Assembly: GCA_002189035.1 (NCBI GenBank)
Contig: NEEC01000010.1
Location: 2,294,001-2,358,000, forward strand
Direction of reading: 5' to 3'
DNA: 64,000 nucleotides
Source: Utricularia gibba
Taxonomy: Eukaryota; Streptophyta; Magnoliopsida; Lamiales; Lentibulariaceae
Both the position numbers and the translations under genes were made by a program. The notes below the pieces were generated by a model, which saw only the letters and a program-made list of their open reading frames with translations, had not been told where the DNA came from and did not search any database. Positions 9,899-50,766 of the stretch are shown in pieces (positions within the stretch are counted from its first letter, which is position 1; every line of letters starts with the position of its first letter).

Positions 9899-11496
9899 TC
9901 AAAGATACATACAAGAAGAGGAACGTGTGAGATTCAGCGGCACCCCAAGATGCTTTTCTCGTAGAGTGACTTGGCACAAGACATTGGCGTAGAAGTTGGA
10001 TTTCACAAGCTTACCCAATATATAGGCTCTAGAGGTTACCAGCACCGTCAGGTTCAACGGCACCGCCATCAGCGCCGTCTTGCTCCGCCCGCTTCCCAGC
10101 CCGCCGTAGAGCGGCACCTGCCGTCCCTGAACCACGACGGCGAGTCTTCTCTGCGTCCGTCTCGGCTGGTAGAACTTGCCCATCTACGAAATCAACCAAT
10201 TAACACGCTTGGCATACTGCAGACGGGGTACTGCGTACTCACTTGGGCAGACGCGATCTCGAGGTCGAAGTATCGGAGATGGAGAGGAGCGGAGTCGACA
10301 TGGACGCCGAAGAACGTCGCCGGATTGGCGTACGCCATCACGACCGTCGAGTTCAAGGACAGCATGTCCGTCGGCACTCCGGTGGCATCCATCCCCGCTT
10401 GGACGTTCAAATTCTCGAAGCAAATGCTCTACATGAAATTCAAACGTAAATGCAACTTCAAATTTGACATGAGATTTTATTAGTTTTTTTATTTAATTAT
10501 ATGATTAAATTGTACTGCAAATTTTTGCAAATTTTTTTTAATTAATGAGTATTTTTCTAATTTTAAACGAATTTAATTATCTTTATTTTCTAATTATGTA
10601 ATTATCTTAATTGATGTATTTTTAATTATCTACTTCGATTTGAAAAGTTAAAAATTAATAATCTATTCTTTAATTTAAAGTTGTACTTCATATTATATGA
10701 AAAAGAATTATCTGAAATGCAATCAGTTTAAAATTAGCAAACTATTTTGTTAGATAATAGAAAATTACATTATAGAATTTAATACAATGAAATATATTGT
10801 GAGATTTAATATATTAAATTATATAATTTTTATAATTAATTTATTATTTAATTTAGAAAAAATATATAAAAAAATTCAATAATTTTTTAAATTAATTATA
10901 AAATATGAATTTCTAATTTACTATAAAATGATTAAATATTAAAATATTAAACAAAATTAAACAAAATCATTGTCTAACCGTTAATTTTTATTTCAACTAT
11001 TTATTTCTGTGGTACGTAAAGATAAGTGCGTGGTGACTGACCGTAACGGTAATCCTGGGCTTGTAGGCGAAGCTGGAAGCCCAGAGAATGAAGGAGAAGA
11101 GAGCAAAGAGAAGCAGAAACGAGAGCAGGAAGCAAACCATGTACACCTTGACCTGCTGCCCACCTTCGTCGTCTTCATCTTCTTCCCTTCCCCGGCGTCG
11201 AAATACCGGCGCCACCCGGTGGTTCTCGAGTTCTTCATCGAGGAGGAGAATCTGGAGGTGGAGGAGTCTTGCTCCTGAGACTGGAACAGATGGTGAGTGG
11301 GGGAAGCGAAGGGGCTTGAGGCGTACGACATCTTCTCTACATCCTGCAGCAGGGAATGGGCGGGGCTCTGGACGAAGTACCGGGGGAGCGGGGCGGCGAC
11401 ACCGCCATTTCCGACTCTGGGTTGCTGTGAAATGGGAGCTGCAGCTCTTGCATATTCATTTGTCGTAGTGGGATGTGGTGGGGTGCCTTCAAGCAT
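9899..11496 (-). CDS. LEA_2/NHL-like single-pass membrane protein (frame broken in exon 1)
   Basis: Three exons: 11042-11496, 10243-10428 and 9899-10183, with donors GTCAGT and GTGAGT and AG acceptors. The protein begins MLEGTPPHPTTTNEYAR, has a Ser-rich cytosolic part and one hydrophobic segment (VYMVCFLLSFLLLFALFSFI). It ends in an LEA_2 domain (TDMLSLNSTVVMAYANPATF, FFGVHVDSAPLHLRY, MGKFYQ..., VPLYGG, YILGKLVKSNFY). The domain order matches the plant LEA hydroxyproline-rich glycoprotein group that includes At1g45688; the biochemical role is not established. The frame shifts by one base near 11185-11195. One extra G in the run gccgggga would join FDAG to the acidic stretch before the membrane segment. 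I suspect a sequence error rather than a dead gene. Confidence 0.8.
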
Positions 11497-12289
11497 TAAC
11501 TTGTGGGGAAAAAAAGAAGATGAGAGTGACTTGGAGTGATGGAAGACCGGAGAAGGCAATAAGTCCGCCATTAAATTGCAACATCCCACCGGGACAGCGA
11601 CTGAGAGAGAATATATGACTCCAAGGCGGTTTCTTGGTCCGGGAAACGAAACACGGTGGTGACTTATTGGGCTCCGGCGAAAATGGAGGACCGTTGGGCC
11701 GAGCTTATTGGTCAACATCAGGCCCATTGGAAGTCCATGCTTTTGAACTATGATACGCATCGGTGGAATGGAGACACGTGTCCCATTCGGGTGCGATGAT
11801 TCTTGGTTGTACCGCCGGTGGGAGTATTCACCGGCGCCTCCTTGTAAAAGGTTCAGGCGTCGAGATCACTGACTCCCGCGATAAGGGATAGGGATGAAGC
11901 CTTGATCCGTATATTCTCCGGCGACCCTCGTCCCTCAGGATGGCAAGATCGCCGACTCCGGCACGGTGGATAAATTCTCCGCAGCCGGAAATATCACCGC
12001 ACAACGACAACACGACGAGGGCAAGCTTTCAGAATCCCAGACCGTTAACTTGTTCTCCGCCGCTAAAAAGATGTAGAAGCCACAGGGTTTCAGGTGATGA
12101 AACTGACTGAGCAACTCGACAACCCTGAATTGTATGCAGTGGTGTTTGAATTTAACTAGACAATGGTGTGTTTATCATGTTCTTAGTGTGGGATTGGATG
12201 AAATTGCTTAATCAAATGAGGGAGATAACATTTATCAACATCCAGAATCAACATGGTCTATCAGATTTGGGATCTAATACAAAGAGAGC
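11497..12289. other. Upstream region of the LEA_2 gene and 3' flank of LHCB3
   Basis: Around 11695-11735 there are GGGCC/GGCCCA (site II-like) boxes, consistent with the promoter of the minus-strand LEA_2 gene. 12060-12289 is the likely 3' UTR and flank of LHCB3. No further gene seen. Confidence 0.45.
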
Positions 12290-13231
12290 TTATGATCCAG
12301 GGGCAAACTTGGTGGCATAGACCCAAGCATTGTTGGCAACAGGGTTATCAAGATGATCCAACAGATTCTCAAGAGGCCCTTTACCGGTGACAATGGCTTG
12401 AACGAAGAATCCAAACATTGAGAACATGGCCAACCTCCCATTCTTAATCTCCTTCACCTTGAGCTCTGCGAGAGTCACAGGGTCATCGGCCAATCCAAGA
12501 GGATCAAAATACTGGCCTCCGGGATAAAGATCATTGCCCTCTCCAACACCTTCAAGCCCATTGATTCTGTATCCTTCCACAAGCCCCATGAGCACAACTT
12601 GGACCCCAAGAACTGCAAGAATGCTCTGAGCATGGACAAGGTTGGGGTTCCCTAGATAGTCAAGTCCTCCTTCGGAGAAGATCTGGGCTCCAGCCTTGAA
12701 CCAGACTGGTTCCTTGAAATCAACATTGAGCCATTTCTGAAGAACTTCAGGGGTTATGGAGCCTAGAGCTCCCAGCATTGCCCATCTCCCGTGAATGACC
12801 TGCATTCCAATCGTTGTTAATACACCCCGGGACTCTAAATTTTGCAGGCTGTGCGAGGGGAATTCGGTATTCACCTCAAGGGCTCTGTTTTTAGCGAAGG
12901 CCTCTGGATCCGCAGAGAGTCCGGCGGTATCCCATCCGTAGTCGCCGGGGAATTCTCCAGTGAGATACGATGGAGTTTGAGCGGAGAATGGTCCCAGGAA
13001 CTTGACGCGGTCGGGGCCGTACCACAGATCATTACCCTGTAGAACTCACGATTAAGAACGTCTGAACTCTACATAACAAAAGCTCTGGGGAATGGCGATA
13101 CTGACCATGGTATACTTGGCGCTTCCCATGGGGACAATGAATCTGAGGGGGTTGGAGTTCTTGGTCTGGCCCAAGAAGGGAGAAGGCTTCACGGCGGTCG
13201 TGGAGCTGGCGGCAGCAACCATTGATGCCAT
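12290..13231 (-). CDS. LHCB3: Chlorophyll a/b-binding protein of LHCII type III
   Basis: Three exons, 13106-13231, 12875-13036 and 12290-12799. All have GT-AG borders in phase 0 and give exactly 265 aa. [14 protein letters not shown] is the start of the plastid transit peptide. The mature part contains [15 protein letters not shown], the helix-B motif [13 protein letters not shown], the stromal [18 protein letters not shown] block and the helix-A motif [16 protein letters not shown], ending [14 protein letters not shown]. The type III assignment rests on the short N-terminus after the transit peptide (no phosphorylatable LHCB1/2 N-terminus) and the overall match to LHCB3. The product binds chlorophyll in LHCII trimers of the thylakoid around photosystem II. 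The gene is complete. Confidence 0.95.
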
Positions 13232-13961: not shown

Positions 13962-14955
13962 TCAAAAGGAGCGATTAACGTGGAGTGCTGCGGTTTTGGT
14001 GGATTTACACAGCGGGCAATTCTGAACCGCAGCGACGCAGACACCGCAAACGCACAGATGTCGACAGGGAGGAGGAGGACGCACGATTCCTCTCTCCGGC
14101 ATCTACGGCACATGCTGCTGCTGCTGCCGCTGCCGCTCTCGTCGCCGTTGCTGGTGCTGCCGCAGGACGATTCAGCATCGTTTGCTAGATCCGCTTCCTC
14201 GCCGCGGCGCTGCTTGTCGTCCTCGGCCTTGGCGAGGACCTGCTCCAGATTAGATCGGAGAGCGTTCACCGCCGCCTCATTGGACTGTGCCAAATCGCGC
14301 CACAGTTGGTTCTCGGCAGCCAGAGATTTCAATCGATCCTCCAGTGCGAGATTTAGTTGACTAATTTTCGCGATTTCTTCCTCTTTTTCCTTCAGTTTCT
14401 TTGCGACGGCTTCCTCCACCGTCGCCGCGATTTTCCTCGAGTAGTGCTTCCGCCGCTCGTCGATTTTCCTCATCACGATTTCAGTCTGTGGAGAAGTTGA
14501 TCGAAGGCCGATGTCAGGCAGGGGGGAACGATTCTCGGAAATGTGAAACATCGGTGCTTACATTTTGTGCGATGAATCGGTCCATTTCCGCCATCTGATT
14601 GTGGATATGGCTGGAGATATCTTCGCCGAGAAAAGTGAATACTCCACCGGCTCCGCCGCCGTGATTAGCCTTAGCATCAATCTGATCCGGGAAACAGGGA
14701 GTAGGAGGAGAAATAGTCGATTCTCTCTGCCGCTTCCTCGATAAAGGAGCGTACGTCAAACCGCTATCAGATTTCACCGAGTGAAACCCAGCGGCCAGCG
14801 GCGACCAATACACCGTCTCCGGCGCCGCAGCGGCGGACATCATATTCCCATTCCCGTCAACGGCATATCCTCTGCATCGTATTCCCAAGAATGACTGAAC
14901 ACATCTCCAAAACCGCAACAAGAAGAGAGATCGGCGGGTACCTGTTCGGAAACAT
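13962..14955 (-). CDS. BOI/S-RNase-binding-type RING E3 ligase (frame broken in RING)
   Basis: Exons 14942-14955, 14562-14871 and 13962-14485. The 14-nt first coding exon (MFPN plus two bases) splices in frame to GYAVDGNGN. The central part has SGLTYAPLSRKRQRES and HNQMAEMDRFIAQN. A long coiled coil follows (RKIDERRKHYSRKI to about NLEQVLAKAEDD). The C-terminus is a C3HC4 RING: CRRCRREESCVLLLP, then in the next frame CRHLCVCGVCVAAV, NCPLCKS and the terminal HVNRSF. This matches the BOI/BRG family of nuclear E3 ubiquitin ligases that restrain cell death and gibberellin responses. Exon 3 is 524 nt, one short of a whole frame. The missing base is in the C run near 14066-14070, inside the RING. 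If real, it would destroy ligase activity. Confidence 0.85.
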
Positions 14956-18496: not shown

Positions 18497-18632
18497 GGAA
18501 ACGCCAAGCGCAACCGCGAATGTCAGAACTCATGAAGAAGAAACGCAAACGGCTAAACAAGCGGTGTAGAACAAATGGAGTCAGTAGTAGTTAAGGTGTT
18601 TGGAAGCATTCAGATTTGAACTCCCACAATAA
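18497..18632 (-). repeat. Extra diverged copy of the eEF2 3' UTR
   Basis: About 130 bp resembling 18738-18866: gcgcaaccgcgaatgt, agaactcatga, aaggtgtttggaagcatt and agatttgaactcccaca occur in the same order. It lies outside the inverted repeat and indicates an older tandem duplication of the eEF2 3' end. Confidence 0.65.
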
Positions 18633-18707
18633 AAATTGGACAGGAGCAGCATTCATGAGTTCAGAATTGGACAGATGCAAGCATACAATTTCCCCCAGGC
18701 TCCTCAC

Positions 18708-18740
18708 AGCTTATCCTCGTACTTGGACAGAGGTGTGAGA
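18708..18740 (-). pseudogene. Relic of an eEF2 C-terminus
   Basis: On the minus strand this reads TPLSKYEDKL followed by a stop, matching the true C-terminus [10 protein letters not shown] of the adjacent eEF2. The true CDS end lies at 18883. The mirrored relic in the right arm is at about 27918-27951. Confidence 0.7.
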
Positions 18741-18882
18741 AGCGCAACCGCGAATGTGAGAACTCATGAGGAAGAAAAGAAAACGGACAAACAGGCTTAT
18801 CCGTAGTAGTAGTTCAGGTGTTTGGAAGCATTTAGACAGATTTGAACTCCCACAAAAAAGCTGCAAGTGTTGATCTATCCTC

Positions 18883-21637
18883 TCAGAGCTTATCCTCGTA
18901 CTCGGACAGCGGTGTCATCTGCTCCTTGAGGCCCTTGCGCTTCCGGATATCGGCGACCAGAGTGGCGGCCTGGGATCCGGATTCCAGTGGGTCGGACGAC
19001 ATCATGTCCCAGTGGTCGAACACGCACTGCGGGAACGCCTGTCCCGAAGTTGCGGCGCGCAGGGTGCTGGAGAAACCGAAGGACTCGATGACGGGGAGAT
19101 ACGCTTTGATGTTGTAGAGGGGAGTGCCCGGCCTCTGCATTTCCTCGAACACGTGGCCGCGCTTCTGGTTCAGCACACTGTAGATGCCACCCAGGGCCTG
19201 CTCCGGGGCCTGGATCTCAACCAGGTATACTGGCTCCAACAGGCGGGGCTTTGCGGTCAGATGAGAGGCGTAGACCACTCTTCTCGCCGTGGGAATGACT
19301 TGGCCGCCGCCCCTGTGAATGGCGTCGGCGTGGAGGACCACGTCGCACACTTCGAAGCAGATGCCCCTCATGTTCTCCTCCGCCAACGGCCCTTCCTTGG
19401 AAGCCCACTGGAAACCGGCGACCACCGAGTCCTTGATCTCATTCAGGTACTGAACTCCCTTGCACATGTCCACGACCATGTTGGGGCCGGTGGTCTCGGG
19501 GCCGAAGCACCATATCTTCTTGGCGAGCTCCTTGTCCCACCCGAACTCTTCCGACAAGATCTTGGAGCGAACCTTGGGATCATCCCTCGGGCCAATACGC
19601 CCGTCGTCAATGGCTTCTGCGAGTCCATCTTCCAGCGGTCTGGCTTCCATGTACAGACGGTTGTGCTTGTTGGGAGATTTGCTCATGACGGTGCGGCTGG
19701 ATCTCTCCAGCACCGTCTCACGGAAGGACACCACCGGATCAGATTTCACGATCTCGGCACCCCCCATGAAGTCCTCCTGCAGGTCCTTGAGGCAGATCTC
19801 AAGGTGAAGTTCTCCTGCACCAGCAATAATATGCTCACCCGACTCCTCGATGCTGCACACCACCATAGGATCAGACTTCGCCAAACGCTTCAGTCCCTCC
19901 ACAAGCTTCGGCAGATCAGACGCAACCTTGCACTGTACAGCAACACGCACGACGGGTGACACGGAGAACTTCATTGCTCGAATCGGGTGTGCATCCACTT
20001 CCTTCTCATTCGTAAGTGTGGCGTTCTTCGTGATGAACTGATCCAACCCAACCATGGCCACGGTGTTCCCACAGGGGACATCCTCCACGGTCTCTTGTCT
20101 CTTTCCCATCCAAATAACAGTTCGCTGCACACTCTTCACGTACAGGTCCTTCTTCTCTCCGGGCACATAATTCGGACCCATGATTCTCACCTTCAAACCT
20201 GTAGACACCTTTCCCGAGAACACACGTCCGAATGCATAGAACCTTCCCTTGTCAGAGGCCGGAATCATCTTCGAGACATAAAGCATGAGCGGCCCCTCGG
20301 GATCACAGTTTCTGATAGCATTCGCATACATATCATCGAGAGGTCCCTCGTACAGGTTCTCCACACGGTACTTCTGGGCCTTTGCAGGTGAGGGAAGATG
20401 GAATATCATCATTTCCAGTAGAGCGTTGCTGGCAGGAAGCCAGGTCTGCATCACCCGCTTCATCAACGCCTTTCCCATCAGTTCCTTTTCTTCTGATTTC
20501 ATCGTCACGCCGAGCTTCTGCAACATGGGCCACAGTTTCTCCTTCTGGTCATTCATGCACGTGGCAATTATCTGCTTGATAGGCTCGTAGCAGAACTGTA
20601 CAAAACCGCGCTTGCAGGTAGGAGACCCAGAATTCTTGGTAGTCCACTTCTTCGTGGCAGGATCAAAGAAATTCTCTCCCCACAGCCTCTCCATCATCTT
20701 CCCCTCATCCACACCAAATTTGGAAGCATACATCTTGGCGAAATTCGTCAAGGTAAACGCCCAGCCGTGCAGACCCGCAGAAAAAGCAACCGTACCCTTT
20801 TCGGGGTACACCATAACATCACCGAGGAGAGGATCTTCGTATGTGGCCATGATAACGTTGGCATTCTCGATGACCCTCTGAAATGTTTGGTAAGCTTCTT
20901 CTCCTTCAACCTGCAGCTCAAGGAAGCACCTGTCCATCTTGTTCACCGTCAACACGGGTCTGATTCTCTCTCCAAGAGCTTGTCGCAGGACAGTCTCCGT
21001 TTGAACACACACGCCCTCTACACAATCCACCACCACAAGAGCACCGTCGGTAATACGGAGAGCAGCCGTCACTTCGGACGAGAAGTCCACGTGTCCAGGG
21101 GAATCAATGAGATTGATGAGGTACTCGTTTCCTTGTCTCTCCCCCTTGTAGTTCTTGAGAGATTCATCAGACATCTCGTAGTACAAGGAGATGCCAGTAG
21201 ACTTAATAGTGATACCACGCTCAGCCTCGTCAGCTCGCGTATCCGTCATTCTCACATCACCAGCAACCTCCTGGGCAATGATACCCGCAGCAGCAACAAG
21301 GGAATCCGTCAGTGTTGACTTCCCTGGAAGAAGATGAAAATACAAAGCGATCAAGCACTGAACGGACATCCCATGGCACAGAATTAATGCCAAATAACTC
21401 TGATATTGTCATACGAAATATAACCACAATCAAACTGAGGCCTCATACCATGATCAACATGGGCGATAACCGACATGTTGCGTATGTTATGCTTCAGGTC
21501 CATAATTCTACGGAGCTCATCTGCTGTGAACTTCACCTGTAATCATCAAGTACAGTAGCACATTAGGGTCCCAAAAAATAAGCCTGCTAGTTTTTCTCAC
21601 TAATGATAAAAAAAGAAGAAAACTTTCGGCTTACCAT
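18883..21637 (-). CDS. eEF2: Translation elongation factor eEF2, left copy
   Basis: Exons 21635-21637 (ATG only), 21449-21536 and 18883-21323, giving exactly 843 aa, the standard plant length. Starts [18 protein letters not shown]. The GTPase shows G1 [14 protein letters not shown] split by the second intron, switch [15 protein letters not shown]3 DSPGHVDF and G4 NKMDR. Domain IV carries the diphthamide loop ([18 protein letters not shown] region). The C-terminus is YEDKL. It is the GTP-dependent translocase of the cytosolic ribosome (Arabidopsis LOS1). The leader region runs into a telo-box promoter at 22124. The intron directly after ATG is the usual plant eEF2 layout. The sequence is identical to the copy at 25018-27772. 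Confidence 0.97.
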
Positions 21638-22123
21638 CTTCGCAGATCAGATTCAGACGCTAGAGGCTGCTAGTATAAGAAGAATCTGCCACTGGTACAA
21701 ATAAAGATTGTAACTTCGTTCAGAGAAGGATATATAGCAAGTTCAAACAGAACAAGAAAAAACCATATCAAGCTGGAAACTCTAGAAAACTAAAAGAGCC
21801 GCCAAAGCGTAAGTGGCACAAATAATGCCATGAATTTGAAGAACACCCAAATTCTGATTCCTTTCTATGAACGAAAAACAACTGGATTAACCTTAAGAAG
21901 CATTATTATAATATAGCTCTAAAATCGATGACAATAGGGGAAAATGCGATCCATCAAATCATCCAAGTAGCGACGCAAACACATACGTTTAAACACGGTT
22001 AAAATATTCCATTGCCAAAAAAGAAGAATCCTGACACCGCAATCGTAAGGCATATGTATGCATACAGAGAAAACGGAAGAACGTGGCGACAACCTCCGGC
22101 GCACTCTGATGTGTGCCGCGGCA

Positions 22124-22448: not shown

Positions 22449-23837
22449 ATGGATCGATCCAAGGGGAACAGAAGCCATCCCCAAGGTTGTCTCCTTACCC
22501 AATTCCCAAATTCCTTTTTCATTCTACGCTTAATGCTGCCCAATCAAATTTTGTAGGTGAAATTGCTCGGATCCTCGTTGAGTTCCTGGAGGTTGCCGTG
22601 ACATCGGTAGTTTTTCTCAAAGGAGTGTACCCAAATGGTTTCAATTCGCCGTTTTTCTGCTTCCACTTTTTTTTTTTTTTCTAATTTCTGCTCTGTTCGG
22701 ATTATTGACTCCTCGAGGGAAAATCAATGGGTTGCAGGAGCTTTCGAGAGAAGGCGGTACATGAATGTTGTGGTTCATAAAGCCATACACCCTGAGTTAA
22801 GCGAGTATATTCATTCGGTTGTTCATGGGCTCCTACCGTTAATCACCAAGGTTGCGTTTTTTTGGGTTTCTGTCATCTAAAAATCTTGGATACGTCATTG
22901 AGAAGAAATTTTAACGTGTGGCTTTGTAAATATGAATGAAATTGAAGGTGAAGTGAAACGTGGTTTAACACTTGTTTTTTCATCAGGGGTTGGTGGATAG
23001 AGTAGGTGTGATATTCTTCAATGGTGAAAATGTTACCATGGAGCGATTCGTTTTCAAGATCAACGTGAATCAGTCATATAGTTCTAGGGTGGAACAAGAG
23101 AACCTGGAGTTCTCTCTGAGATCATTTTTGATCAAGCTGCCTTTCTCGCGGCTTTAACAAAAGCTCTTCCTCCGGTAAGCTTACATTACATGCCCTTCAC
23201 TTTTCTTATGCTGCTTCTTGAATACTTATAAATTTGCAGTCTTCTTGAAGTATGAAGTTGAATAGTTTACCGAGTGTTTCTTTTCACGGATGCTCATGGA
23301 TTTCTGTCCTTCTATGTGAGCATTCTGAGATAGCAAAACACCACCACCTAATACGAACCTTGTATTGGTGATATTATAGAAGGGGATGCCTCTTATGAGT
23401 CAAGTATTTTCAATCTCTATGTTCGCTTTCTGCTTTTCTGTCTCAATTCCTGAAAATTGCAAATGTTCCGAAATTGTGAATTTGCTTCATTTCAGTTGGA
23501 GTGGTTTTCTTGCCAGCATTAACTAGTCTTTCAACTCACCAAAGACTTCTTTTGGTGCGTGTGATTCATCATTCAAAAGGGCTTGTACTATGATAGACCA
23601 TAACAGGATACTTTTAATGAATCCATAAGAGTGTTGCTGTCACCAGGTTGCAGGTGGGAGATAATCGGCTACTTCCTACGGTTGCCTGATGCTAGCAGTG
23701 TAGGCAAGGATGATGCAGAGACGTGGATCCCAACCGATGCAAGGCAATGGCAGCAACCACCATTGATAACACCTATCAAGTCCATGTTCAGCGATCCGTT
23801 AAGCTTGCAGCTGTATGTAGAGCACCCAGCCTCTTAG
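22449..23837 (+). CDS. REV7: REV7/MAD2B HORMA protein, DNA polymerase zeta subunit (two small frame breaks)
   Basis: Exons 22449-22485, 22557-22637, 22738-22850, 22987-about 23173 and 23647-23837. Start MDRSKGNRSHPQ, then GEIARILVEFLEVAVTSVVF, AFERRRYMNVVV, HPELSEYIHSVVHGLLPL, GLVDRVGVIFFNGENVTMER, LEFSLRSFLIKL, CRWEIIGYF, WIPTDARQWQQPPL and ITPIKSM. This is the HORMA fold of plant REV7, the accessory subunit that links REV3 and REV1 in translesion synthesis. Exons 1-3 and the start of exon 4 join in frame. The end of exon 4 does not: after LIKL the residues LTKALPP are one frame over, and the join to exon 5 needs one more base. One extra C near 23142 and one extra G at the donor near 23174 would repair both. 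It sits alone between the two eEF2 arms. Confidence 0.85.
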
Positions 23838-24685: not shown

Positions 24686-27600
24686 ATGCTTCTTAAGGTT
24701 AATCCATCTGTTTTTCGTTCATAGAAAGGAATCAGAATTTGGGTGTTCTTCAAATTCATGGCATTATTTGTGCCACTGGACGCTTTGGCGGCTCTTTTAG
24801 TTTTCTAGAGTTTCAGTGTAGTTAAATCTATGCATTGGATTTGATACGATCTTCAAGGGGCTGTGAAGGATTCTCAAGATAATCTCTTTTGGTTCTAGGT
24901 GTTATAGAACATCATCACTTTCAAGACACTTATAGTCTTTATTGCTCATATGACAGGGTCTTCCGAGAACGGGCCTTTATACTAGCAGCCTCTAGCGTCT
25001 GAATCTGATCTGCGAAGATGGTAAGCCGAAAGTTTTCTTCTTTTTTTATCATTAGTGAGAAAAACTAGCAGGCTTATTTTTTGGGACCCTAATGTGCTAC
25101 TGTACTTGATGATTACAGGTGAAGTTCACAGCAGATGAGCTCCGTAGAATTATGGACCTGAAGCATAACATACGCAACATGTCGGTTATCGCCCATGTTG
25201 ATCATGGTATGAGGCCTCAGTTTGATTGTGGTTATATTTCGTATGACAATATCAGAGTTATTTGGCATTAATTCTGTGCCATGGGATGTCCGTTCAGTGC
25301 TTGATCGCTTTGTATTTTCATCTTCTTCCAGGGAAGTCAACACTGACGGATTCCCTTGTTGCTGCTGCGGGTATCATTGCCCAGGAGGTTGCTGGTGATG
25401 TGAGAATGACGGATACGCGAGCTGACGAGGCTGAGCGTGGTATCACTATTAAGTCTACTGGCATCTCCTTGTACTACGAGATGTCTGATGAATCTCTCAA
25501 GAACTACAAGGGGGAGAGACAAGGAAACGAGTACCTCATCAATCTCATTGATTCCCCTGGACACGTGGACTTCTCGTCCGAAGTGACGGCTGCTCTCCGT
25601 ATTACCGACGGTGCTCTTGTGGTGGTGGATTGTGTAGAGGGCGTGTGTGTTCAAACGGAGACTGTCCTGCGACAAGCTCTTGGAGAGAGAATCAGACCCG
25701 TGTTGACGGTGAACAAGATGGACAGGTGCTTCCTTGAGCTGCAGGTTGAAGGAGAAGAAGCTTACCAAACATTTCAGAGGGTCATCGAGAATGCCAACGT
25801 TATCATGGCCACATACGAAGATCCTCTCCTCGGTGATGTTATGGTGTACCCCGAAAAGGGTACGGTTGCTTTTTCTGCGGGTCTGCACGGCTGGGCGTTT
25901 ACCTTGACGAATTTCGCCAAGATGTATGCTTCCAAATTTGGTGTGGATGAGGGGAAGATGATGGAGAGGCTGTGGGGAGAGAATTTCTTTGATCCTGCCA
26001 CGAAGAAGTGGACTACCAAGAATTCTGGGTCTCCTACCTGCAAGCGCGGTTTTGTACAGTTCTGCTACGAGCCTATCAAGCAGATAATTGCCACGTGCAT
26101 GAATGACCAGAAGGAGAAACTGTGGCCCATGTTGCAGAAGCTCGGCGTGACGATGAAATCAGAAGAAAAGGAACTGATGGGAAAGGCGTTGATGAAGCGG
26201 GTGATGCAGACCTGGCTTCCTGCCAGCAACGCTCTACTGGAAATGATGATATTCCATCTTCCCTCACCTGCAAAGGCCCAGAAGTACCGTGTGGAGAACC
26301 TGTACGAGGGACCTCTCGATGATATGTATGCGAATGCTATCAGAAACTGTGATCCCGAGGGGCCGCTCATGCTTTATGTCTCGAAGATGATTCCGGCCTC
26401 TGACAAGGGAAGGTTCTATGCATTCGGACGTGTGTTCTCGGGAAAGGTGTCTACAGGTTTGAAGGTGAGAATCATGGGTCCGAATTATGTGCCCGGAGAG
26501 AAGAAGGACCTGTACGTGAAGAGTGTGCAGCGAACTGTTATTTGGATGGGAAAGAGACAAGAGACCGTGGAGGATGTCCCCTGTGGGAACACCGTGGCCA
26601 TGGTTGGGTTGGATCAGTTCATCACGAAGAACGCCACACTTACGAATGAGAAGGAAGTGGATGCACACCCGATTCGAGCAATGAAGTTCTCCGTGTCACC
26701 CGTCGTGCGTGTTGCTGTACAGTGCAAGGTTGCGTCTGATCTGCCGAAGCTTGTGGAGGGACTGAAGCGTTTGGCGAAGTCTGATCCTATGGTGGTGTGC
26801 AGCATCGAGGAGTCGGGTGAGCATATTATTGCTGGTGCAGGAGAACTTCACCTTGAGATCTGCCTCAAGGACCTGCAGGAGGACTTCATGGGGGGTGCCG
26901 AGATCGTGAAATCTGATCCGGTGGTGTCCTTCCGTGAGACGGTGCTGGAGAGATCCAGCCGCACCGTCATGAGCAAATCTCCCAACAAGCACAACCGTCT
27001 GTACATGGAAGCCAGACCGCTGGAAGATGGACTCGCAGAAGCCATTGACGACGGGCGTATTGGCCCGAGGGATGATCCCAAGGTTCGCTCCAAGATCTTG
27101 TCGGAAGAGTTCGGGTGGGACAAGGAGCTCGCCAAGAAGATATGGTGCTTCGGCCCCGAGACCACCGGCCCCAACATGGTCGTGGACATGTGCAAGGGAG
27201 TTCAGTACCTGAATGAGATCAAGGACTCGGTGGTCGCCGGTTTCCAGTGGGCTTCCAAGGAAGGGCCGTTGGCGGAGGAGAACATGAGGGGCATCTGCTT
27301 CGAAGTGTGCGACGTGGTCCTCCACGCCGACGCCATTCACAGGGGCGGCGGCCAAGTCATTCCCACGGCGAGAAGAGTGGTCTACGCCTCTCATCTGACC
27401 GCAAAGCCCCGCCTGTTGGAGCCAGTATACCTGGTTGAGATCCAGGCCCCGGAGCAGGCCCTGGGTGGCATCTACAGTGTGCTGAACCAGAAGCGCGGCC
27501 ACGTGTTCGAGGAAATGCAGAGGCCGGGCACTCCCCTCTACAACATCAAAGCGTATCTCCCCGTCATCGAGTCCTTCGGTTTCTCCAGCACCCTGCGCGC

Positions 27601-28020
27601 CGCAACTTCGGGACAGGCGTTCCCGCAGTGCGTGTTCGACCACTGGGACATGATGTCGTCCGACCCACTGGAATCCGGATCCCAGGCCGCCACTCTGGTC
27701 GCCGATATCCGGAAGCGCAAGGGCCTCAAGGAGCAGATGACACCGCTGTCCGAGTACGAGGATAAGCTCTGAGAGGATAGATCAACACTTGCAGCTTTTT
27801 TGTGGGAGTTCAAATCTGTCTAAATGCTTCCAAACACCTGAACTACTACTACGGATAAGCCTGTTTGTCCGTTTTCTTTTCTTCCTCATGAGTTCTCACA
27901 TTCGCGGTTGCGCTTCTCACACCTCTGTCCAAGTACGAGGATAAGCTGTGAGGAGCCTGGGGAAATTGTATGCTTGCATCTGTCCAATTCTGAACTCATG
28001 AATGCTGCTCCTGTCCAATT
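24686..28020. repeat. Right arm of large inverted repeat (eEF2)
   Basis: Reverse complement of 18636-21903. Block 24686-24830 matches 21780-21903. 24831-24985 is unrelated to the left arm. 24986-28020 matches again, including the relic eEF2 C-terminus and second 3' UTR. The arm ends exactly at a poly-T run starting at 28019. Confidence 0.9.
25018..27772 (+). CDS. eEF2: Translation elongation factor eEF2, right copy
   Basis: Exons 25018-25020, 25119-25206 and 25332-27772 (2532 nt, 843 aa). Both introns and all coding sequence match the left copy without a difference that I could find. All GTPase motifs and the C-terminal YEDKL are intact. The 5' leader differs from the left copy: 24831-24985 and everything upstream of 24686 are unrelated. 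Its promoter may therefore have been newly acquired, and expression may differ although the protein is the same. The two copies are transcribed away from each other. Confidence 0.97.
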
Positions 28021-28854
28021 TTTTTTTTTTTTTGACGTACTCTATTTGGAGGCTACGCTGTACGCACTATATATTCGCACTTATACTCTATATTTATGTA
28101 ACTGCAAACTGTACGGTATCAAATTTTACTGGTTAAAAACTTTAGAAGTAAATACAATATGTTACATAAGTTAGATGACGGAACAAACAATCAGATTTAA
28201 TTTAAAATGAAACTAAATTTTATAATACGTTGTTCCACGTTTAATCAAATTATAGGAAATAATGCATATCCATGAAGTATTTCCTAAGCCCTCTCTGATC
28301 ATTTCATGATGCGCCGCCTGCTCTACATTTGTTGGAGTATCTGCAAAAAGCATGGTAGATCTACTTCTGCTCACGCTTCTTCCCACCGTGAAATGAGCAT
28401 CCGAAGTTGAACTTGAAGCGTTTGTCAACCCCTTCATCGTCGAACTTACAGTAATCTTACAACGTTGTCGGCTTCAAAAAAAAAAAAAATGGTATCTTGA
28501 AAAACATAAAACTATTTTTTTTCCCACATTTGCCAACTTAACCTTTGCCTAAAACGCTCGTGTTAGATTAACTTCACATATGCAGCACAGAACGCAGGTT
28601 AGTTAAATATTATGGCTTCAGTTTCATAAAGTTTGCATGCTACGGGTTTGAACTTTTCTGGTTTATTAATGACGCGAAACAATTGGCTAATTGCAGTTAC
28701 TCCAAGTGCATTTTGGAGTCATTTTGCATGTACTCTTAAAGTACATTCGAGTTACTTTGTCTACTCGTAGTGTGTCTCTTTTTCCTCCTCATGCTCTCAG
28801 TCCCTCTATATATATGTCGTGTGTGTGTGCTACAGTCATCACCTCCCTTTTCCG
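27773..28854. other. eEF2 3' flank and expansin promoter
   Basis: 27773-28020 is the eEF2 3' UTR with the relic C-terminus (TPLSKYEDKL, stop, 27918-27951). 28021-28034 is poly-T. The remainder is AT-rich up to the expansin TATA box at 28804. A 74-codon minus-strand open frame at 28213-28437 has no recognisable similarity. Confidence 0.5.
28804..28815 (+). promoter_or_regulatory. TATA box of the expansin gene
   Basis: ctctatatatatg about 45 bp upstream of the expansin ATG (28855). This leaves only a short leader of roughly 15-20 nt if transcription starts about 30 bp downstream. Confidence 0.55.
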
Positions 28855-29871
28855 ATGGCCGTGGCGATCGTCTCCGCCGTGCTGGTTTCCATGCTGTTAG
28901 GCGTCTCGTGTGAAGATGCGGGATGGAGGAATGCCTTCGCTACGTTTTATGGCTCTGAGGATGGGTCCGGTGGCATGGGTTAGTGTCACCAGTGTGCCCA
29001 TTCTTTGTAGCATTAATCAATTCTTACCGCATTCTCAGTTATGAAATAAATTTTTTATTTATGATAATATATTCCATAAAAATGTTTAGAAATGAAAGCT
29101 TTATAAATAAAAGTTTATTTTTTTAATGAATTATGTAAGTTGATTTTGGAAATGTGTAAAATTTGATGCTCATGCATGCATGCATGCAGGGTCGGCTTGT
29201 GGTTATGGGAACGCAAACGAGCACGGATATGGTGCGGACACCACGGCCTTGAGCACTGCTCTCTTTAACAACGGCCAAACATGCGGTGCATGTTTCCAGC
29301 TCCGGTGCATCAACGCACCTCAGAGCTGCATCGGCGGGACAGCCGTCACGGTGACCGCCACCAACTTCTGCCCGCCGAACCCTGATCTTCCTAACGACAA
29401 AGGTGGCTGGTGCAACCCCCGAGGCGGCACTTCGACCTCTCCAAACCAGCTTTCACCAAGATCGCACACTACAAGGCCGGCATCGTCCCCGTCTCCTTCA
29501 GAAGGTAAAATCATGAGTTCAGTAGTCGTTTCTCTTCGCAGGACTTATAGGGTTTTTTTGGTAACAGGGTGCCATGCGTGAAGACGGGCGGAATTCGATT
29601 CACGATGAACGGAAACCCTTACTTCAATCTGGTTCTGGTGTCCAATGTCGCCGGCTGGGGGGATGTTGTTGCAGTTTTGGTCAAGGGATCGGCGACGGGG
29701 TGGCTGAAGATGACAAGAAATTGGGGGCAGAATTGGCAGAGCAACTCGCATCTCGTCGGCCAGAGCCTCTCGTTTCAGGTGACCACCAGCGATGGCAGAA
29801 CTGTCACCAGCTACAGCGTCGTCCCGCAGAACTGGCAGTTCGGCCAAACGTTTGAAGGCAAGCAGTTCTAG
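28855..29871 (+). CDS. Alpha-expansin (frame broken in exon 2)
   Basis: Exons 28855-28978, 29190-29504 and 29568-29871. An N-terminal signal peptide ([19 protein letters not shown]) is followed by the six-stranded barrel domain: [51 protein letters not shown] and, one frame over, [20 protein letters not shown], which carries the HFD motif. The C-terminal CBM63-like domain has [28 protein letters not shown] and [15 protein letters not shown]. Expansins loosen cell walls non-enzymatically in the apoplast. Exon 2 is one base short. Five Cs at about 29416-29420 (aacccccgagg) would need to be six to read WCNPPRRHFD. Otherwise the protein stops being expansin-like halfway. Confidence 0.88.
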
Positions 29872-30293: not shown

Positions 30294-31321
30294 CTAGACA
30301 TGATGAGCTACCAAAGCTGCAAGCATGAGACTGCTGAAGGTGATTACATTGAGTGATATGGGTTGTGCGGAGCTGGGCGATTCGTTTCCATAATCGTATC
30401 CTCCGGGTTCCGAACCAGATCCTCCAGGGGAGTAAGGATTACTTGTCGTTGTGCTGTGATGAAAGATGAAACGATTTTCATTAGATTCCCCTTGCATAAA
30501 CGGCATCATCAAGAACATACCTCGGCGGTGTCATTGGAATTGTTGGTGGGTTCGGCATTGTGTTTGCTGGTGAGTTCGGCATTGTGTTTGCTGGCGGGTT
30601 CGGCATCGTGTTAGCTGGTGGATTGGGGATGGTGTTTGTTGGTGATGCAAACCGACAGTTACCATAACCTGTTGGCCAACAAGAGATGTTTAGCGGACAA
30701 AAGTATGCAGCCACTGGTGTAGGTGTAGTTCAGAGTCTTACTTGGATCAGTGCTAGAAAGCTGGGCTATTCCCCAAATGCACAGCTGGTAGGAACAGGGT
30801 TCCTCTGATAGTAGCTATTGAAGGCATAAGAAGCATGGTCACGAACTGTATTCGGATCATAGCACGGCCCACCTGGTTGAATCGCGGAGCAGTCGGCGCC
30901 ACCATAGCCGCACGCATAGTCCAGGGCTACTTGTAATGCAGTCGGGGAAGCATTGGAACTGGCAATGCACCACGCTCTTCCAGAGGGGGTGGTTGTGGTT
31001 GGATTTCCAGCTGGTGTCGTTCCCGGAATGGTTGGGTTTACGACTGGAACATTTCCTGGAGCTGCTTGCCTCTGCACGCTCACCATTTTAGCAGGAAACC
31101 AAACTTGAACTTGTTGATTGTTCTCTTGGTCTGTTTCCAAAGGCATCATCTCTGCCATAGCTGCAGCTGAATGGAGAGGACATGAAGATTAGCATTCTCC
31201 CATCTCTAAAAATAAATCAGTTAAAATCACCTGAAACGAAGAAGATGCCTAGTATGACGAACAAAGAAACAAATCCTGATTGCATTTCCAATGCTGTGGA
31301 AACTTCAGATTTCTTTCTCAT
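30294..31321 (-). CDS. X8-domain GPI-anchored callose-binding-like protein (frame broken in exon 2)
   Basis: Exons 31231-31321, 30742-31160, 30521-30668 and 30294-30453. A signal-like hydrophobic start (MRKKSEV..., [16 protein letters not shown]) is followed by an X8/CBM43 domain: [49 protein letters not shown], then SCAFG and STDPSYGNCRF (the six-Cys pattern). Next come four repeats of about ten residues (NTxPNPPA) and a Ser/Gly-rich spacer. A C-terminal hydrophobic tail ([15 protein letters not shown]) predicts a GPI anchor. This is the architecture of plasmodesmal callose-binding proteins and related X8-GPI proteins at the cell wall/plasma membrane. Exon 2 lacks one base at about 30768-30773, where GGGG should be GGGGG. 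With it, the coding length is a clean 272 codons plus stop. Confidence 0.83.
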
Positions 31322-34949: not shown

Positions 34950-37900
34950 TCATCTTCCTTCTCCAATTTTTCCATAGGGCAATGTGGGCTGCCCAGGTTC
35001 AGCAGGGGATATTTCACTTGTGCCAACACTTGCAGCAGCAGCAGCAGCAGTGGCATAGCTTGAGGTTAAGCTATCAGTATTCGTGAAGAAGGATGATGTA
35101 TCATCGAACGTCGGGTTAATTAAGTACCCGGGGCGGGAAGTAACTGGAGCCACCTCAATGTCACCACACAGCATTGCCATCACACGGGACATGGGTGGCC
35201 GTAATGCCGGAGATGCTTGTATGCACAGAAGAGCGACACCAATGACCCTCCTCACTTCCTCTGCGTTGAAGTCTTTCAATACTGGATCCACTAGCTCCAG
35301 TTCACTCTTGGTTTCGTGCAGATTCCAAGCCTGAAGAAGCATCAGTGAAACAATCTTAATGTTCTTACCTCAAGAGAATCAAGTATCATTTTGGTCAAAA
35401 TATGGGAAGACGTACCCAGTCAAGAAGATACGTGCCCTTCTTTTCATTGTCTGTATTAGACCTCCCACTGACAATCTCCATAGCCACGACCCCAAAGCTA
35501 AAGACATCTACTTTTTCAGTAAGATGCCCTCGCATAGCATACTCCGGCGGCATATACCCACTAAGCAAAGAAGAGAAAAAATGAATATTTGGTGCTAAGT
35601 GATATGTGATGAAACATTAAAACTTACATTGTACCGGCGACCCTTGTGCTTATGTGTGTCTTCTTATCATCGTACAGCTTAGCCAGCCCAAAATCTGATA
35701 TCTTGGGCATAAGATCCGAGTCCAGAAGGATATTGCTAGCTTTCACATCTCTATGAACAATTCTAATGCGGGATTTCTCGTGGAGATACGTTAACCCTCG
35801 TGCAATTCCCAAGCATATGTCAAACCTTGTTGCCCAGTCGAGGTGTAAGCTTCGGCTACCATCTCCAAACAGTATTTGATCAAGACTCCCGTTCTCAAGA
35901 AACTCGTACACGAGCATACGTTTGTCTCCTTCAATACAGCAACCATGCAACTTCACAAGGTTACGGTGTTGCACAGCTGATATAGAGGCTATTTCTGCTA
36001 CAAACTGGTTCTTTCCCTGATTTGAAGTCACTGAAAGCTGCTTAACAGCAACAACTCTGCTATCCCCAAGTTTACCCTACAGAATATGCCATTGCAAATT
36101 GCATATGTTTCTGCATCTAGCTGAAAAAACTGAATAGTAAGTACCTTGTAAACTGGACCGAATCCTCCTTCTCCAAGCTTGTTCTCGATGTTGAAGTCAT
36201 TTGTTGCAGTTTTAAGCTCAGAATAACTGAATGTGTACGGCCGGAATTCAATGCCGAGTAGTTCTAGATGTTAATATCAACAGAAGCAACAAAATGTCAT
36301 GGCACATAACAAAATAAACACAGATCAACAGTTACACGAATGCAAAGTCACCTTGATCCTCTAAATCTCTTTGCCTTTTTCGGCGGACAAAGATAACTGC
36401 AAGGAGGACAAGCAAGCATGCAGCAGCAACAACTCCCACAACTGCCCCAACAATACGACCAGTAGAATTCTGAGGGGAGTTGCTGGTGACACTTGAATTC
36501 GAAACTGTTTAAGAAAGTACCAACTGATTTTATAAGACTGTTGAGTACTTCAACATCACCTTTGCTAACAACTTAATACGTTGCTTGAAGATTTTGCTTA
36601 CTTCGTCTTGCACTTAAAGCTGAAATAGCTGGTCCATAGGTCCCTGGTGCTGGTACACAGCAAGTTCCTTTGCCAGCCCAAAACAGATGAACTTCGACAT
36701 AGTTATTCACGACAGAAACATTGAAACTCCTCACCACAGCGCGGAAAGAAACACCACCAGCTTCTCTTTGTATGTCGAAATCTCTCAGTAACAAATTCCC
36801 TGAACCATATAGATTCTCTATACTTGAGAGAAGGAAATGTCTGCATACACATGGAGTGTGAAAGTGGGATTACCTGAATATATACATCAAACACACGTCT
36901 TCCGAGGCTCCTCCACGTTCTTGTATTGACAATGGTAGCCTCTGCAAACTGTAGCGTTACTGTGTAGTTGCCATTTTCAAGACCTAAACCGTAGTATCTC
37001 AATGACCCTGCTGAAATCCTAGAAGTCTGAAAAAGCTCAGAATCTAGAGTACTGGTGAACTGCGATGATGAAAATGTTCGATAGAGTGGGTTAATGTCGT
37101 CACTAGGCAAACCAACATTGCTAACACCCCATCCTCTCTCTTGGGCTACATAGTAGTTTGCAGGGCCGAGAGTCTCATTCTCTCTATCATACAGAGTTCT
37201 ATCAGATAATGATGTGATCGACGGGCCTCCACATTTTACTGCAAATCCTGAATCTGCAAGAGGAAGATAGCAAAAATAAAATAAAATAAAATGGAATACC
37301 ATTTTAAACATCATGGAATTTAAGATGGAATGGAATGGAATACAAAAGAATAGTATTCCTTACTTGTGGGTGGAATACGGTTACAAGAAAAGCTTCTCTG
37401 CAGGCATTCCAACCCACTGTAATTATTGGACAAAATAGCTCTGAGAACTATGAGTAAAACCTAAAATACCATGCATAATGAAATTCGTACCTCGTTGTGT
37501 TGACAGTAAGATTGTTTGACACGGCGTTGCTACAATAAATGGTTCACCACATTTAGCTCATATTAAATTTTAAAACGGTGCAAGCAAGAACTTTCTAACT
37601 CTTTTTGCTCATACAGGCTCAAGTTCTGCACATTGATCCATGATGGAAAGCTTCCTGACAACTCATTGTATGAAACATCTCTACCATGAAGAGTGTAGCA
37701 TTTGAGCAAGGGAACCACATAGTTACTGAGATTTTAGGCATTTGGTACATCAAATAAAATCAGGCACATACATAATCAAAAGGTTGGAACTCTTCTGCAA
37801 AGGAAGCCCGCCGGTTAAACTGTTATTTCCAAGATAACTGTAGAGAAAAAAAATGTAAATGAGGCATTTAGTACAATTAAATTCTTTTTGTCTTCTAGCG

Positions 37901-45000: not shown

Positions 45001-48000
45001 AGTAAATAAACGCATAAGCATCTTCTTCAATTTTGAACCCTCCACTTTTACGATATTGTTCGAATATCAAACTTCCTCAAGTAGTGTCATTTTATACACA
45101 TTTTAAAATAGTATGATTAATTCTCAAATTCATACTATGTGAATTGAGCCTGCAGAATGGACACGAGACAGCACCAGATCAGCTGTGTGCATTTTAGTTC
45201 ACTATTTTATGTAATTAGGGGAAATATTCGATACATAAATTCACAGTTATCGCTCTCGTCAGTACAAATGTCTGGAAAATCCTTCTCTCGATATGCTCGA
45301 CAAGACATTTGTCTTCTTACAATTTAAAGAAAGGTAATAGATACTTTGATCATTAACACTCCAAACGTGGGCGACACACTGCCCAATACCACCATCATTA
45401 AATAATATTCTGGTTCCAGTATCCCTTTTCCATGATATTTAATATTCAACCATATAATATAAAGTTTCTTATTTGCAAATAGGATGAAAAATTATGATTT
45501 ATGTGCCACAAAAATAAAATAATATTGGGTTAATATCATTAATCAATAATATGATAAATCATCTCCAACTATTATTATTATGACATTTGGTATCATACCC
45601 AAATATGGATACGCACCAATAGTGGGATAATATAAGTATATACTATATTAGTTATGAATGTGAAAATAACGTATATAATTAAAGTTATCCTTTTAATATT
45701 ATATAATATGTTTTTTAGTAAATATATAACGTAAAACTGTAAAAATTCAATGATTAAAATGTAGAATATTGTATATGAATATATTGTGGTTTGTGAGATT
45801 AAACCGCCAAAAAAATGTTACTATTGACTTACGAAGTACAAGGGGTAAGCTTTTTTTCCAATTATTTATGTCTGTCACGTGCATAAATAATTCAAAAACG
45901 CATTGGTACGGCATAAAATATTTTCCAAATTCTGACAAATGCACGCTTCTTGTTTCCACAGTCGACACTGCACAAAGAAGAGCAATCTAATTTTGGCATA
46001 CATTGAGCAATAAGTTTTTTTGTTGACCACGATTATATTAAATAATATTTATTAATGAATTTTTATATTTATTTTTTATTTTCGCATTCAAGGAGAGTTG
46101 GGATGGGCATGGGATAGGGTGATAAAGAAGAAAAATTTAATGATGGAAGGGGTAGGTGTGCAATTTTTAATGGGAATAATGATGGTGGAGAATTAATATA
46201 AGTTAGGTATATGGATTTATGGTGGAATAAATGCCAATTACCCGATTCATGAGGGGGGCATATGCAATTAATCAATCCCCTTTAAATGAATACTTGTAGC
46301 TGGCTACTGCCCCTCTTCTCCTCTCTTCAGACCATTAATATTTCCCCTTCACACGTTTACCTACGCCCTCCCAATGCTTCCTCATTTATTTAAAAATGCC
46401 TACTTCTTGTATTCAAATCCCCCATTGCAATATATTTTATAATTAAAATTATAGATTTTTTTATAAAAATAAAAATAATATATTCGATTCAGATAAAGGA
46501 TACTTAAGAATTTAAATTCGGATCAATATCATTTGTAATTGTTGATTACAAATTTTTATTTATACTCGAATCATTTATTATCCATTCGAATTTATCGGTT
46601 AAAAAACATTCCTATTCCCATTTAATAACAATTTGATCACGAACAAAAGCACAATATTATTAATATTTTAGATTTCCTATTAATATCCGGTTGAACCGGT
46701 TTCTGATTGGACGGGTAGCGTGTTTTACCCAAACGCAGAAGAATCAGGGCTCAGAATCAACCGGTCGGTTGGTGACAAGGACCGCCCAACTTTATTCACT
46801 CCCCGGGTACCGAAAGTGTAATATACGGAAACCGGTGGACTCAAAAGCAGACAAAAGTTTTTGTTACTGGGCATTAAAAGTAATATCATGTTAGTTGGGG
46901 GACGGCTGCCCTAGTTTTCAAGGAATGCAACAGTTCATTTTATTCCTCCAGCTGAAAAATATTCCGTGACATAATTATTTAAGTTCGGTATTTAAAAATA
47001 TGAGAAATAAAAGAAGTATGGCCAAATTTGAAAATAAATTGATTTTAAAGTATTTTTTAAGAGTATAAAATGTTTTAAATAGATCCTAAGAATATAGTAC
47101 AATACTCAGTTTGTTTTATAGACTTCCGGTGCCTTCCCAACACTCGGTATGGCGGCACCGGAGCAAACCCCTGCGTCGGAATCCGCCGAGTGACCAAGAC
47201 ACTCGGTCTGTTTCCGGTGCCGGACGCCGTCCGAGTGTCACATTATCCTCCTCTAATCGCCACGTCATTGAATGATCAATTTGGATAGACTCTTATTCTT
47301 CGGTTTCATTTCTATAATTTACTTGGAAAAATGGCAACCCGTTTGATGAAAAAAATGATTATTTTAATATTAATTTATCGTATTTGTGAAAAATAAACGT
47401 CACGACCCACGTTTCGTTTTACGATATTTTACACTTAGGTCACCTAAAATTCATCATTTTATGTTTTTTTACTTTCAGATAAATCTTCTCATTTGTGTAC
47501 CTTTTTTTAAGCATACATTTTTCTCATTCATAACTAATGTATAATATCGTAATTAAGCATCTTTGGGTTACATTAAAATAAATTGTAGTTAGATACTTTT
47601 ATTCATGAGCACATCATCTTCGAAAATGAATGAAAATTGGGTGAAACTGAATCGGATTAATACGTGTTTTGTATACTCGTCTACGACAAGCATTTGTATG
47701 TAAGAAGGGCGGTTGTCAAGGTTAGGTTTGCGTGCATTAAATGAACCCAATAAAAAAGAAGAGTAAGTTGATGGTCACACGTAATCCCTTAATGACAATT
47801 AAATTGTATGCGTGTCGTGTAGCAATTATTTCCTCAATCGCCTTGTAATTTAGATTATATCCACCATTTGTTTTTTAATACTTGTCACATCCTCAAATAA
47901 AACTACGTTATCAAATGGTTTACAGATCAAAACAAGGTGCTGAAACACACACAAACACAGAAGCCTGTGGGTGACTCGGTTTTCCCAAAATCCAAAGTAT

Positions 48001-49822
48001 TTTACAATAATATCAGAGTTATGTTCTATCTGTAGAAACAGACCGATTGTCCCTAGTTGAATGCAGTATCTGGGAAAGGGATGAGCGACTCTGCTATAGG
48101 AAATGTCATATCAGTGATCTTAAAATGAGGAGCGGATTGGGGAGCTTAGCTGGAGTCTTCGTTTTCTGGTGTTAGGGGGCTGGAGCCCCTCCCAACCTCA
48201 CCTGGGATCCGCTGATGGCTTCTAGGGAAGCTTTACTCGAGTTGCAGTAGACATGTAATGCTCTTTGTAAAGTAGAAGACTGAAGTATGTGGAGCTGTTG
48301 TAGCTTCAGCCTTCTACCTCCAATGCTACGACTGAGTAACAATGATAACACATCCATTTCTCATTAAAAAAGAAAAGAAAAAGAAGAGAAAACAGTCCTC
48401 GAGTGTTATCTCAAAACCCTGTGATTGCTATCGGAGTATGTCAGGGCCCCCACACAAACAGGGATGGTGAATCTCACACTTAGTTACGTTAACCCCATCT
48501 TTTGCTACCCTGATTCCAAAAAATTACCCATACTAAAACTATTTTAGATCAAACATGTTTGATTTTAGAATTTCTATTAAAGTAAATTTCATCGTATTTA
48601 AAGAAAAATTTGTATGATCATTCTAATCAACGTATTTATCTTTTTGTTTTCCAATAACATTGAAGCTAGTGAATGGATGATTACACCCACCAACTCCGTG
48701 TATGTGGTGTCTATTGATCCCATCCGAATTCCGAAATTTTGTCCGTTCTAATGGAACTAGACCACGAAATGTGACTGACCACCTGGATAGGTACTGCGCA
48801 AGTAAACTATAGAGATGAGAAGCGGTGGGTGGAGCATCAATATAGGGTTTTGGAGGTTGCGGGCAAAGAGTTGAGTGCCATATAAATAGCATTAGACGGA
48901 AGTAGAAAGGAGAGCAAATTGAACCAAGCTTCTTCATCATTGTGTTGTGTTGCAACTTGGAATTGGAACCAGGGTTGCGTAGGCCAGACATTGATGCACA
49001 CCTGTCCCTTGGAACTAAGATCACAACAAATCGCACAATTATTACGTCTTTAATAAGCCACTAACCCCAGCCCCTACCCCAATCACTCACCTACACCTCC
49101 TCACTATCTATCTGCTTTTGGGTGATTTTGGAAAGTAGTTACTATAAAATGTAATGTTTAGGATGATCAAGTTTAAAATGAAGATGCCCATTGACCTACC
49201 CACATGTTTCTAACAAGAAAGATGTCTTAATTGGACGTGTTTGTAAGGTAAGAAGCAGAGGTGGATTCTTCGGTACTTGTGATTCGCGGAGCTCAACCAG
49301 ACCAGTACTGGAACACGTCGTGTCATACCATCATCCCAAGTCCACCTATCGATCATCAGAACTCATTAGACAATTTGCATGAATGTATCGAACTACCGCC
49401 GGAATCCGTCACATCACCGCACCGGCCCGTCGCCGGAAACCACCATTGGAACCTGCCTGACCATCATTGTAACCGGTTAGGGAACCACCCCTCACAAATT
49501 TGGTCAAGGGTAAGAGTAATATTATTTTTTTAGATTCTGAAACATGTAAAAGTGGTTCTTGGGTGCCGTACAATTTAGGCAACGCATGCAGTATATGAAA
49601 ATAAAGAGGACGTGGTAACTGGAGGCTTATTTACCGGGTTGTAAATTATTATATGAAAATGAAGAGTGAAAGTCAACGGTTTGAAAATTTGTAGAGAGAT
49701 TACAAAAAATGGCAGTGGGTGGTTCTGTAAAAATATGTTTTCTTTTTTTTTTTCCAGTATCTACAAAATTAATGACAGCAGTGACAGTGAATTTAACCTC
49801 GCCATCACCGGCGAGGCTTTTT
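45001..49822. other. Gene-free, mostly AT-rich intergenic DNA
   Basis: AT-rich throughout apart from 46690-46870, 47110-47250 and 48120-48350. 48361-48394 is an A-rich tail-like run following about 230 bp of more GC-balanced sequence, which could be an old retroposed fragment. I identified no gene. Confidence 0.35.
47112..47250. repeat. GC-rich patch with nested direct and inverted repeats
   Basis: About 140 bp in AT-rich surroundings. ccggtgcc occurs twice and its complement ggcaccgg once. acactcggt occurs twice and its complement (ccgagtg) twice, interleaved so that more than one hairpin can form. It may be a remnant of a small DNA transposon end or a structured element. Confidence 0.45.
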
Positions 49823-50766
49823 TCAGATGGACATGTTGAGATCGATTCGTGGCCTTTTTCCGGGGTTTTTCTGCGGCACCCGGATGTCGGAGTTGCACCG
49901 TGGGCACTTGGGATTGCTCCGAGAAACCAAAACGTAGAGAAGGCAGCTGGGGCACCCCGCGGCGAACGCCGCCGACGCCGACTTCTGCTCCTGATCAGTA
50001 TCGCCGCAGGAATCCTTCACGGAGGAGGAAGACGTGGACGAAGACTTGGAAACCGACATCGAAAGCGATCGCTTTCTCCCGGAGGTTTCTCTCTCCGCCA
50101 TCTCCAGAGCGGACTTCACCTTGTCGAGTGTGCACACGCTCGACGACGCGCCGCGGACGGCGAAAAACGGCGTCGAGGAGAAAAGCTTCAAGTCCAACGC
50201 GCCGTCGTCTAATCCCGTGGACTTCGCCGCCGGCGGGAAGTTAAGGTCTTGCACGGTATCCCCGGCGACGCCCCCAGCTCCGCCGTGTTGTCGGACGCCG
50301 AGGACGAGGAGATGGACACCTCCCGCCTCTGGATGTAGACTTTTCCTGACTGCAAGAGTTTTCAACCAATTAATTTTACCGTACCCTCTCCCTTTTTTCA
50401 CCAACAGTACACGTCTCTTTTAATCAAAAAAACACACTTTCATCCCCGTCAATCATCACCAACTCCAAAGCTTTTTCAACCAAATTTACCCTCACACAAG
50501 AACAAGGCGAATGCAGTGAAAGCTGCATATTACCGCCGGCGATTCTCAAAACACAAATTCCGTTCATCAACACCCATGATCATCATCAACAGAAGAAGAA
50601 AACGTACTTTCAAGTCGAGGCGCTTTTCCCATCCCGCAGGGACCTTCAAATCAAGGTCGAGCTCTTTGGAGTCAAGGGGACAGCACCCTCCGAGCAGGTC
50701 CCGCGTGATCAGAGCCGCCGGCTTTCCGGACTCCACCGAGTCGCCGCCGTTCATCACAGCCGCCAT
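49823..50766 (-). CDS. CFL1-like protein with C-terminal zinc-ribbon and DLN motif (frame broken in exon 2)
   Basis: Exons 50608-50766 and 49823-50349; donor GTACGT, acceptor cttgcag. Start MAAVMNGGDSVESG, then CCPLDSKELDLDLKVPAGWE and KRLDLK|SGKVYIQRR (a WW-like segment spanning the intron). In the next frame come TVQDLNFPPAAK, DLKLFSSTPFF, SVCTLDKVKSALEMAE, the zinc-ribbon GCPSCLLYVLVSRSNPKCPRC and the terminal RPRIDLNMSI, an EAR-like repressor end. This matches the plant CURLY FLAG LEAF 1-like family, nuclear partners of HD-ZIP IV factors in cuticle regulation. Exon 2 is 527 nt, one base short. The break lies at about 50256-50262, where ccggggat would need a fifth G. With it, the protein would be 228 aa. 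Confidence 0.75.

Follow-up and report, generated by a model that had tools for sequence, protein, structure and literature searches.

Reading frames of conserved genes interrupted by single-base losses, mostly beside short G/C runs, in the Utricularia gibba assembly

Why do seven conserved genes in one stretch of the Utricularia gibba assembly fall out of frame for want of one base each, or two in one case, when genes beside them read through? The stretch analyzed here (the window) is 64,000 nucleotides long and corresponds to G000:C304:2294001-2358000 in a genome of 100.09 Mb on 516 contigs. The PacBio/HGAP assembly of this plant was described with 88x coverage and a contig N50 of 3.4 Mb (PMC5793159), and Unitig_8 was given as 6.8 Mb (PMC8333044); contig C451, which is referred to below, measures 6,822,880 bp. 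The initial annotation had placed one lost base at each of eight positions in seven genes and had attributed the losses to the assembly. The sites were read in three frames, and family homology and paralogs within the genome were used to place the losses. This reading bore out all eight losses (Table 1). Family identity was given by Pfam matches for the RING, expansin, X8, malectin kinase and GIR1/CFL1-like genes, whereas the Pfam match of the LEA_2 gene was below the cut-off, and REV7 was identified by its match to human REV7 (MAD2B) chains of a solved structure. Seven of the eight losses are backed by paralogous DNA or by a gap-free match to the solved structure; the exception is the LEA_2 gene, in which the frame break proposed at about 11190 is clear but its place is loose, to within about 50 bp by homology.

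Table 1. Sites of base loss and the eEF2 inverted repeat in the window.
Feature	Position	Strand	Observation
LEA_2 gene (exons about 9899-11480)	11190..11193	-	Loss near CCGGGGAAGGG (coding strand), located to within about 50 bp by homology alone
BOI-like RING gene	14067..14069	-	CTCCTCCTCCCTGTCGACAT reads LLLP|VD, expected LLLPCRHLC; paralog L026 has CTACCGTGC
REV7, lesion 1	23140..23144	+	IKL|(P)FLAALTK; CTGCCTTTCTC one base short
REV7, lesion 2	23172..23175	+	ALPP|(G)CRWE at exon end CCTCCG|GTAAGC; one base short
Expansin	29416..29420	+	C5 run in NPPRRHF; one base lost
X8-domain gene	30771..30774	-	TTTGGGGAATAG vs TTTGGAGGAACAG in paralogs (two agree); one base lost
Malectin receptor kinase	36798..36800	-	CAG|GGAAT vs CAG|GGGGAT, GGAAAT and GGGAAT in three paralogs; splice acceptor one base short
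CFL1-like (GIR1 zinc-ribbon) gene	50260..50263	-	One base lost between GASPG and QDLNFPP; paralog open across the site
eEF2 inverted repeat, arm 1	18631..21678	-	C5 at about 18692
eEF2 inverted repeat, arm 2	24977..28023	+	C4 at the matching place

In the BOI-like RING gene, one base at the third position of a Pro codon restores ESCVLLLP|CRHLC, and the paralog carries that base. When REV7 was translated with an X at each lesion, the product matched human REV7 through both sites with no gap, and thus both losses are needed; the alternative of a single +1 insertion fails, because the stretch between the two sites, AALTKALPP, is in the frame that matches the family. The base missing from the expansin motif is present in intact expansins, and the same motif is likewise broken in several other expansins. 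In the X8 gene, the comparison with paralogs suggests that the lost base may be either a G of G5 or the A of GGAGG. The claim that neighboring genes are sound held for LHCB3 and for both eEF2 genes of the window, which are intact; the latter two, however, are nearly identical and do not serve as independent intact controls.

A misreading of exon structure was considered for some of the sites, the receptor kinase in particular, where an upstream acceptor, TATAGAG|AATCTATATGG, would keep the frame with five extra residues. Comparison of the acceptor in the window (CAGGGAAT) with those of its paralogs (CAGGGGGAT, CAGGGAAAT and CAGGGGAAT) revealed that all three paralogs keep the standard junction, with an additional base immediately following CAG. 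Furthermore, no splice site was seen that mends the other seven lesions, and the second REV7 lesion needs exactly one residue. A misread exon is therefore extremely unlikely, and the loss of a base is the preferred reading at the receptor kinase as at the other sites.

The initial annotation had further proposed that lengthening a short G or C run by one base mends nearly every site. To set this against chance, random one-base deletions were simulated in ten intact coding sequences; adding a base to a G/C run of at least 2 could repair 65% of them, and adding one to a run of at least 3 could repair 23%. In the window, a G/C run of at least 2 lies beside every one of the eight sites (p=0.03) and a run of at least 3 beside six of them (p=0.003), both REV7 sites adjoining only 2-base runs. 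Taken from the window alone, the run-lengthening argument is thus only moderately above chance: it fits all eight sites, but chance alone allows 65%, and that the lost base is G or C is unproven from protein, with an A a candidate in the X8 gene. The losses in the window lie mostly at third codon positions, and the protein therefore does not fix the identity of the lost base; only near-identical copies reveal it directly.

Such copies, and lesions of the same kind, were found elsewhere in the genome. A survey of LHCB genes, performed with a frameshift-aware protein-to-DNA aligner written for this purpose, revealed a single -1 lesion in each of 4 of 11 genes, with no stops and no gains. A tandem array of six LHCB1 genes with about 99% protein identity (G000:C3:3490806-3502546), three of which look intact and three of which have lost one C, allows three of these losses to be fixed by comparison with sister copies: CAG[C]CCCTGG, ATG[C]CCCCAG and TGT[C]CCCGG (C4>C3 or C5>C4). 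Outside the window, seven of nine expansin genes carry nine losses, one of them of two bases, again with no gains and no stops. Among the eEF2 genes outside the window, three losses were found in the C451 copy and one in the copy at 1.56 Mb of C304; an apparent +1 in three copies proved to be a -1 in the reference copy itself. Two HSP70 genes have a clear -1 lesion, and further -1 lesions were present at a G run in a LEA_2 paralog on C98, in a receptor-kinase paralog with G5 where its sister has G6 (G6>G5), and, judged from match coordinates, at three KCS junctions, each beside GGG or CCC. Histone and tubulin genes showed no obvious broken exons, as judged from match coordinates only.

With the eight in the window, 32 lesions were counted, spanning genes of many functions (LHCB, expansin, eEF2, HSP70, KCS, LEA_2 and receptor kinase). 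All 32 are losses and none is a gain, as the claim of one-directional change had anticipated. About 28 adjoin a G/C run of at least 3, an assignment that for some lesions is a reading of context and is least secure in the expansins. Among the first 27 lesions, 23 lie beside such a run, compared to 23% expected by simulation (p about 1e-11), and the five later lesions behave likewise.

Frameshifted copies beside intact paralogs are also what fractionation after whole-genome duplication leaves behind, and single-base deletions could have ended the function of these copies as real pseudogenes. Duplicate blocks do exist: a block on C451 at about 5.998-6.036 Mb, inverted relative to the window, carries copies of the eEF2, X8 and CFL1-like genes and of three receptor kinases, and redundancy of this kind could relax selection. 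Each broken gene in the window, however, bears one lesion (REV7 two), with no nonsense codon, and no gains occur among the 32 lesions, whereas pseudogenes are expected to show nonsense codons together with disabling mutations of various kinds; neither stops nor gains were seen in the aligned LHCB and expansin genes. Nor is there the further decay of a fractionated copy, and the downstream frame is conserved. In the CFL1-like gene, the 142 codons after the lesion, read in the corrected frame against the C451 copy, gave an omega of 0.18 and no other damage; this frame is under purifying selection, unlike that of an old pseudogene, and relaxed selection past the lesion was not found. The tail of the X8 gene gave an omega of 0.39 over 20 codons, which is too short to judge. 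Moreover, no DNA paralog of REV7 was found in the genome searches made, the broken LHCB copies are broken in C runs only, and duplicates with no substitutions at all, described next, show the same run differences. Altogether, real pseudogenes are a very unlikely account of the lesions, and genes that are sound in the plant remain the favored one.

The strongest evidence on cause came from DNA that appears to have been assembled twice. Contig C241 (31 kb) repeats C304 near 2.23 Mb in inverted orientation (C241:16598-28500 vs C304:2225560-2237462). Over 7,001 and 2,999 aligned bp (10.0 kb), the two contigs differ by no substitution and by five one-base changes, each in a homopolymer: G4/G3, G5/G4, T8/T7, C4/C3 and C3/C2, four of the five being G/C runs. 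Divergence by evolution should bring substitutions first, and differences in run length without substitutions therefore point to consensus noise. The G5/G4 difference lies in an AP2/ERF gene that is an open frame of 286 codons in C241 and is split in C304, the contig of the window; the other four lie in no gene recognized. The first 2 kb of C241, at its far end, did not align at the expected place in C304, and the match may end before it; it is conceivable that C241 represents a haplotype or a genuine recent duplication. The two eEF2 arms of the window offered a second such comparison, with C5 against C4 as the sole internal difference in about 3,049 bp (3.05 kb). When the three exact-copy stretches of the contig pair and the eEF2 arms were pooled, five of six differences were in G/C, although runs of at least 4 numbered 185 for A/T and 52 for G/C (Fisher p=0.002). 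The claim of G/C specificity thus stands for most lesions and for five of the six exact-copy differences, but not without exception, because a T8/T7 run is affected and the REV7 sites lie beside 2-base runs only.

A pattern that is one-directional and run-specific throughout the genome is also what a true mutational bias would produce, for instance a germline deletion mutator that strips single bases from short G/C runs as part of genome shrinkage, the broken genes being tolerated or rescued. Five run changes and no substitutions in 10 kb would, however, mean that indels arise far faster than substitutions, and the breakage of 4 of 11 light-harvesting genes would hardly be tolerable. In addition, each copy is the shorter at some sites (C304 at three, C241 at two), as expected of noise. 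Such a bias is almost vanishingly improbable.

From the zero-substitution run differences between C241 and C304 and the recurrence of the lesion across the genome, systematic base-calling or assembly error, the cause first suggested for the window, is strongly supported. The broken genes are very probably intact in the plant, with an assembly consensus that under-calls short homopolymers, chiefly of G/C. Such a consensus would drop one base from short runs about once per few kilobases, and where the run is exonic the reading frame would shift and a sound gene would look broken; the errors presumably arise from long, noisy reads polished only with themselves. This accounts for what was observed, namely the differences in run length, the direction they take in genes and the way they recur throughout the genome. 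Since the REV7 sites adjoin 2-base runs only, a minority of the lesions could have another cause.

Residual homopolymer-length errors (PMC8812927) and gene-fragmenting errors (PMC12007338) are known from long-read consensus assemblies, in both cases from work on bacteria and small genomes. The lesions described here resemble these in being one-base run-length errors that are spread genome-wide, break genes by frameshift and occur where substitutions are rare; they differ in that every one found in a gene is a loss and most involve short G/C runs. A literature search found no paper reporting a homopolymer fault in the U. gibba assembly. The truncated DCL3 published for this plant was considered as a further instance, but transcript and 5' RACE evidence from its authors bears out the truncation (PMC8333044), and it is not called into question here.

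The apparent gene breaks are almost certainly an ordinary assembly artefact rather than a real feature of the plant, and they are a useful warning for annotation, as automated gene prediction would mistake sound genes for dead ones. Five differences per 10 kb between two copies correspond very roughly to one error per 4 kb per copy, and scaling up roughly from this small sample puts the total for 100 Mb in the tens of thousands. Claims of gene loss, pseudogenes or truncated proteins made from this assembly alone would not be reliable before the sequence has been corrected with accurate reads.

Some of the breaks may be genuine. A divergent HSP70 gene, 71% identical to the others, is frameshifted at one and the same G5 run in both contigs (C241:17650-17950 and C304:2236110-2236410), which could be a shared error or a true pseudogene. 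The eEF2 arms, 99.97% identical, flank REV7 with a 3.3-kb spacer, whereas other eEF2 copies are 83-88% identical; this inverted repeat may be a very recent inverted duplication, a product of gene conversion or an assembly fold-back. Dispersed long repeats with 88-90% identity, inverted and direct, lie near both ends of the window (55932-58396 and 6790-9239; 1-1002 and 8623-9645) and are probably transposable elements.
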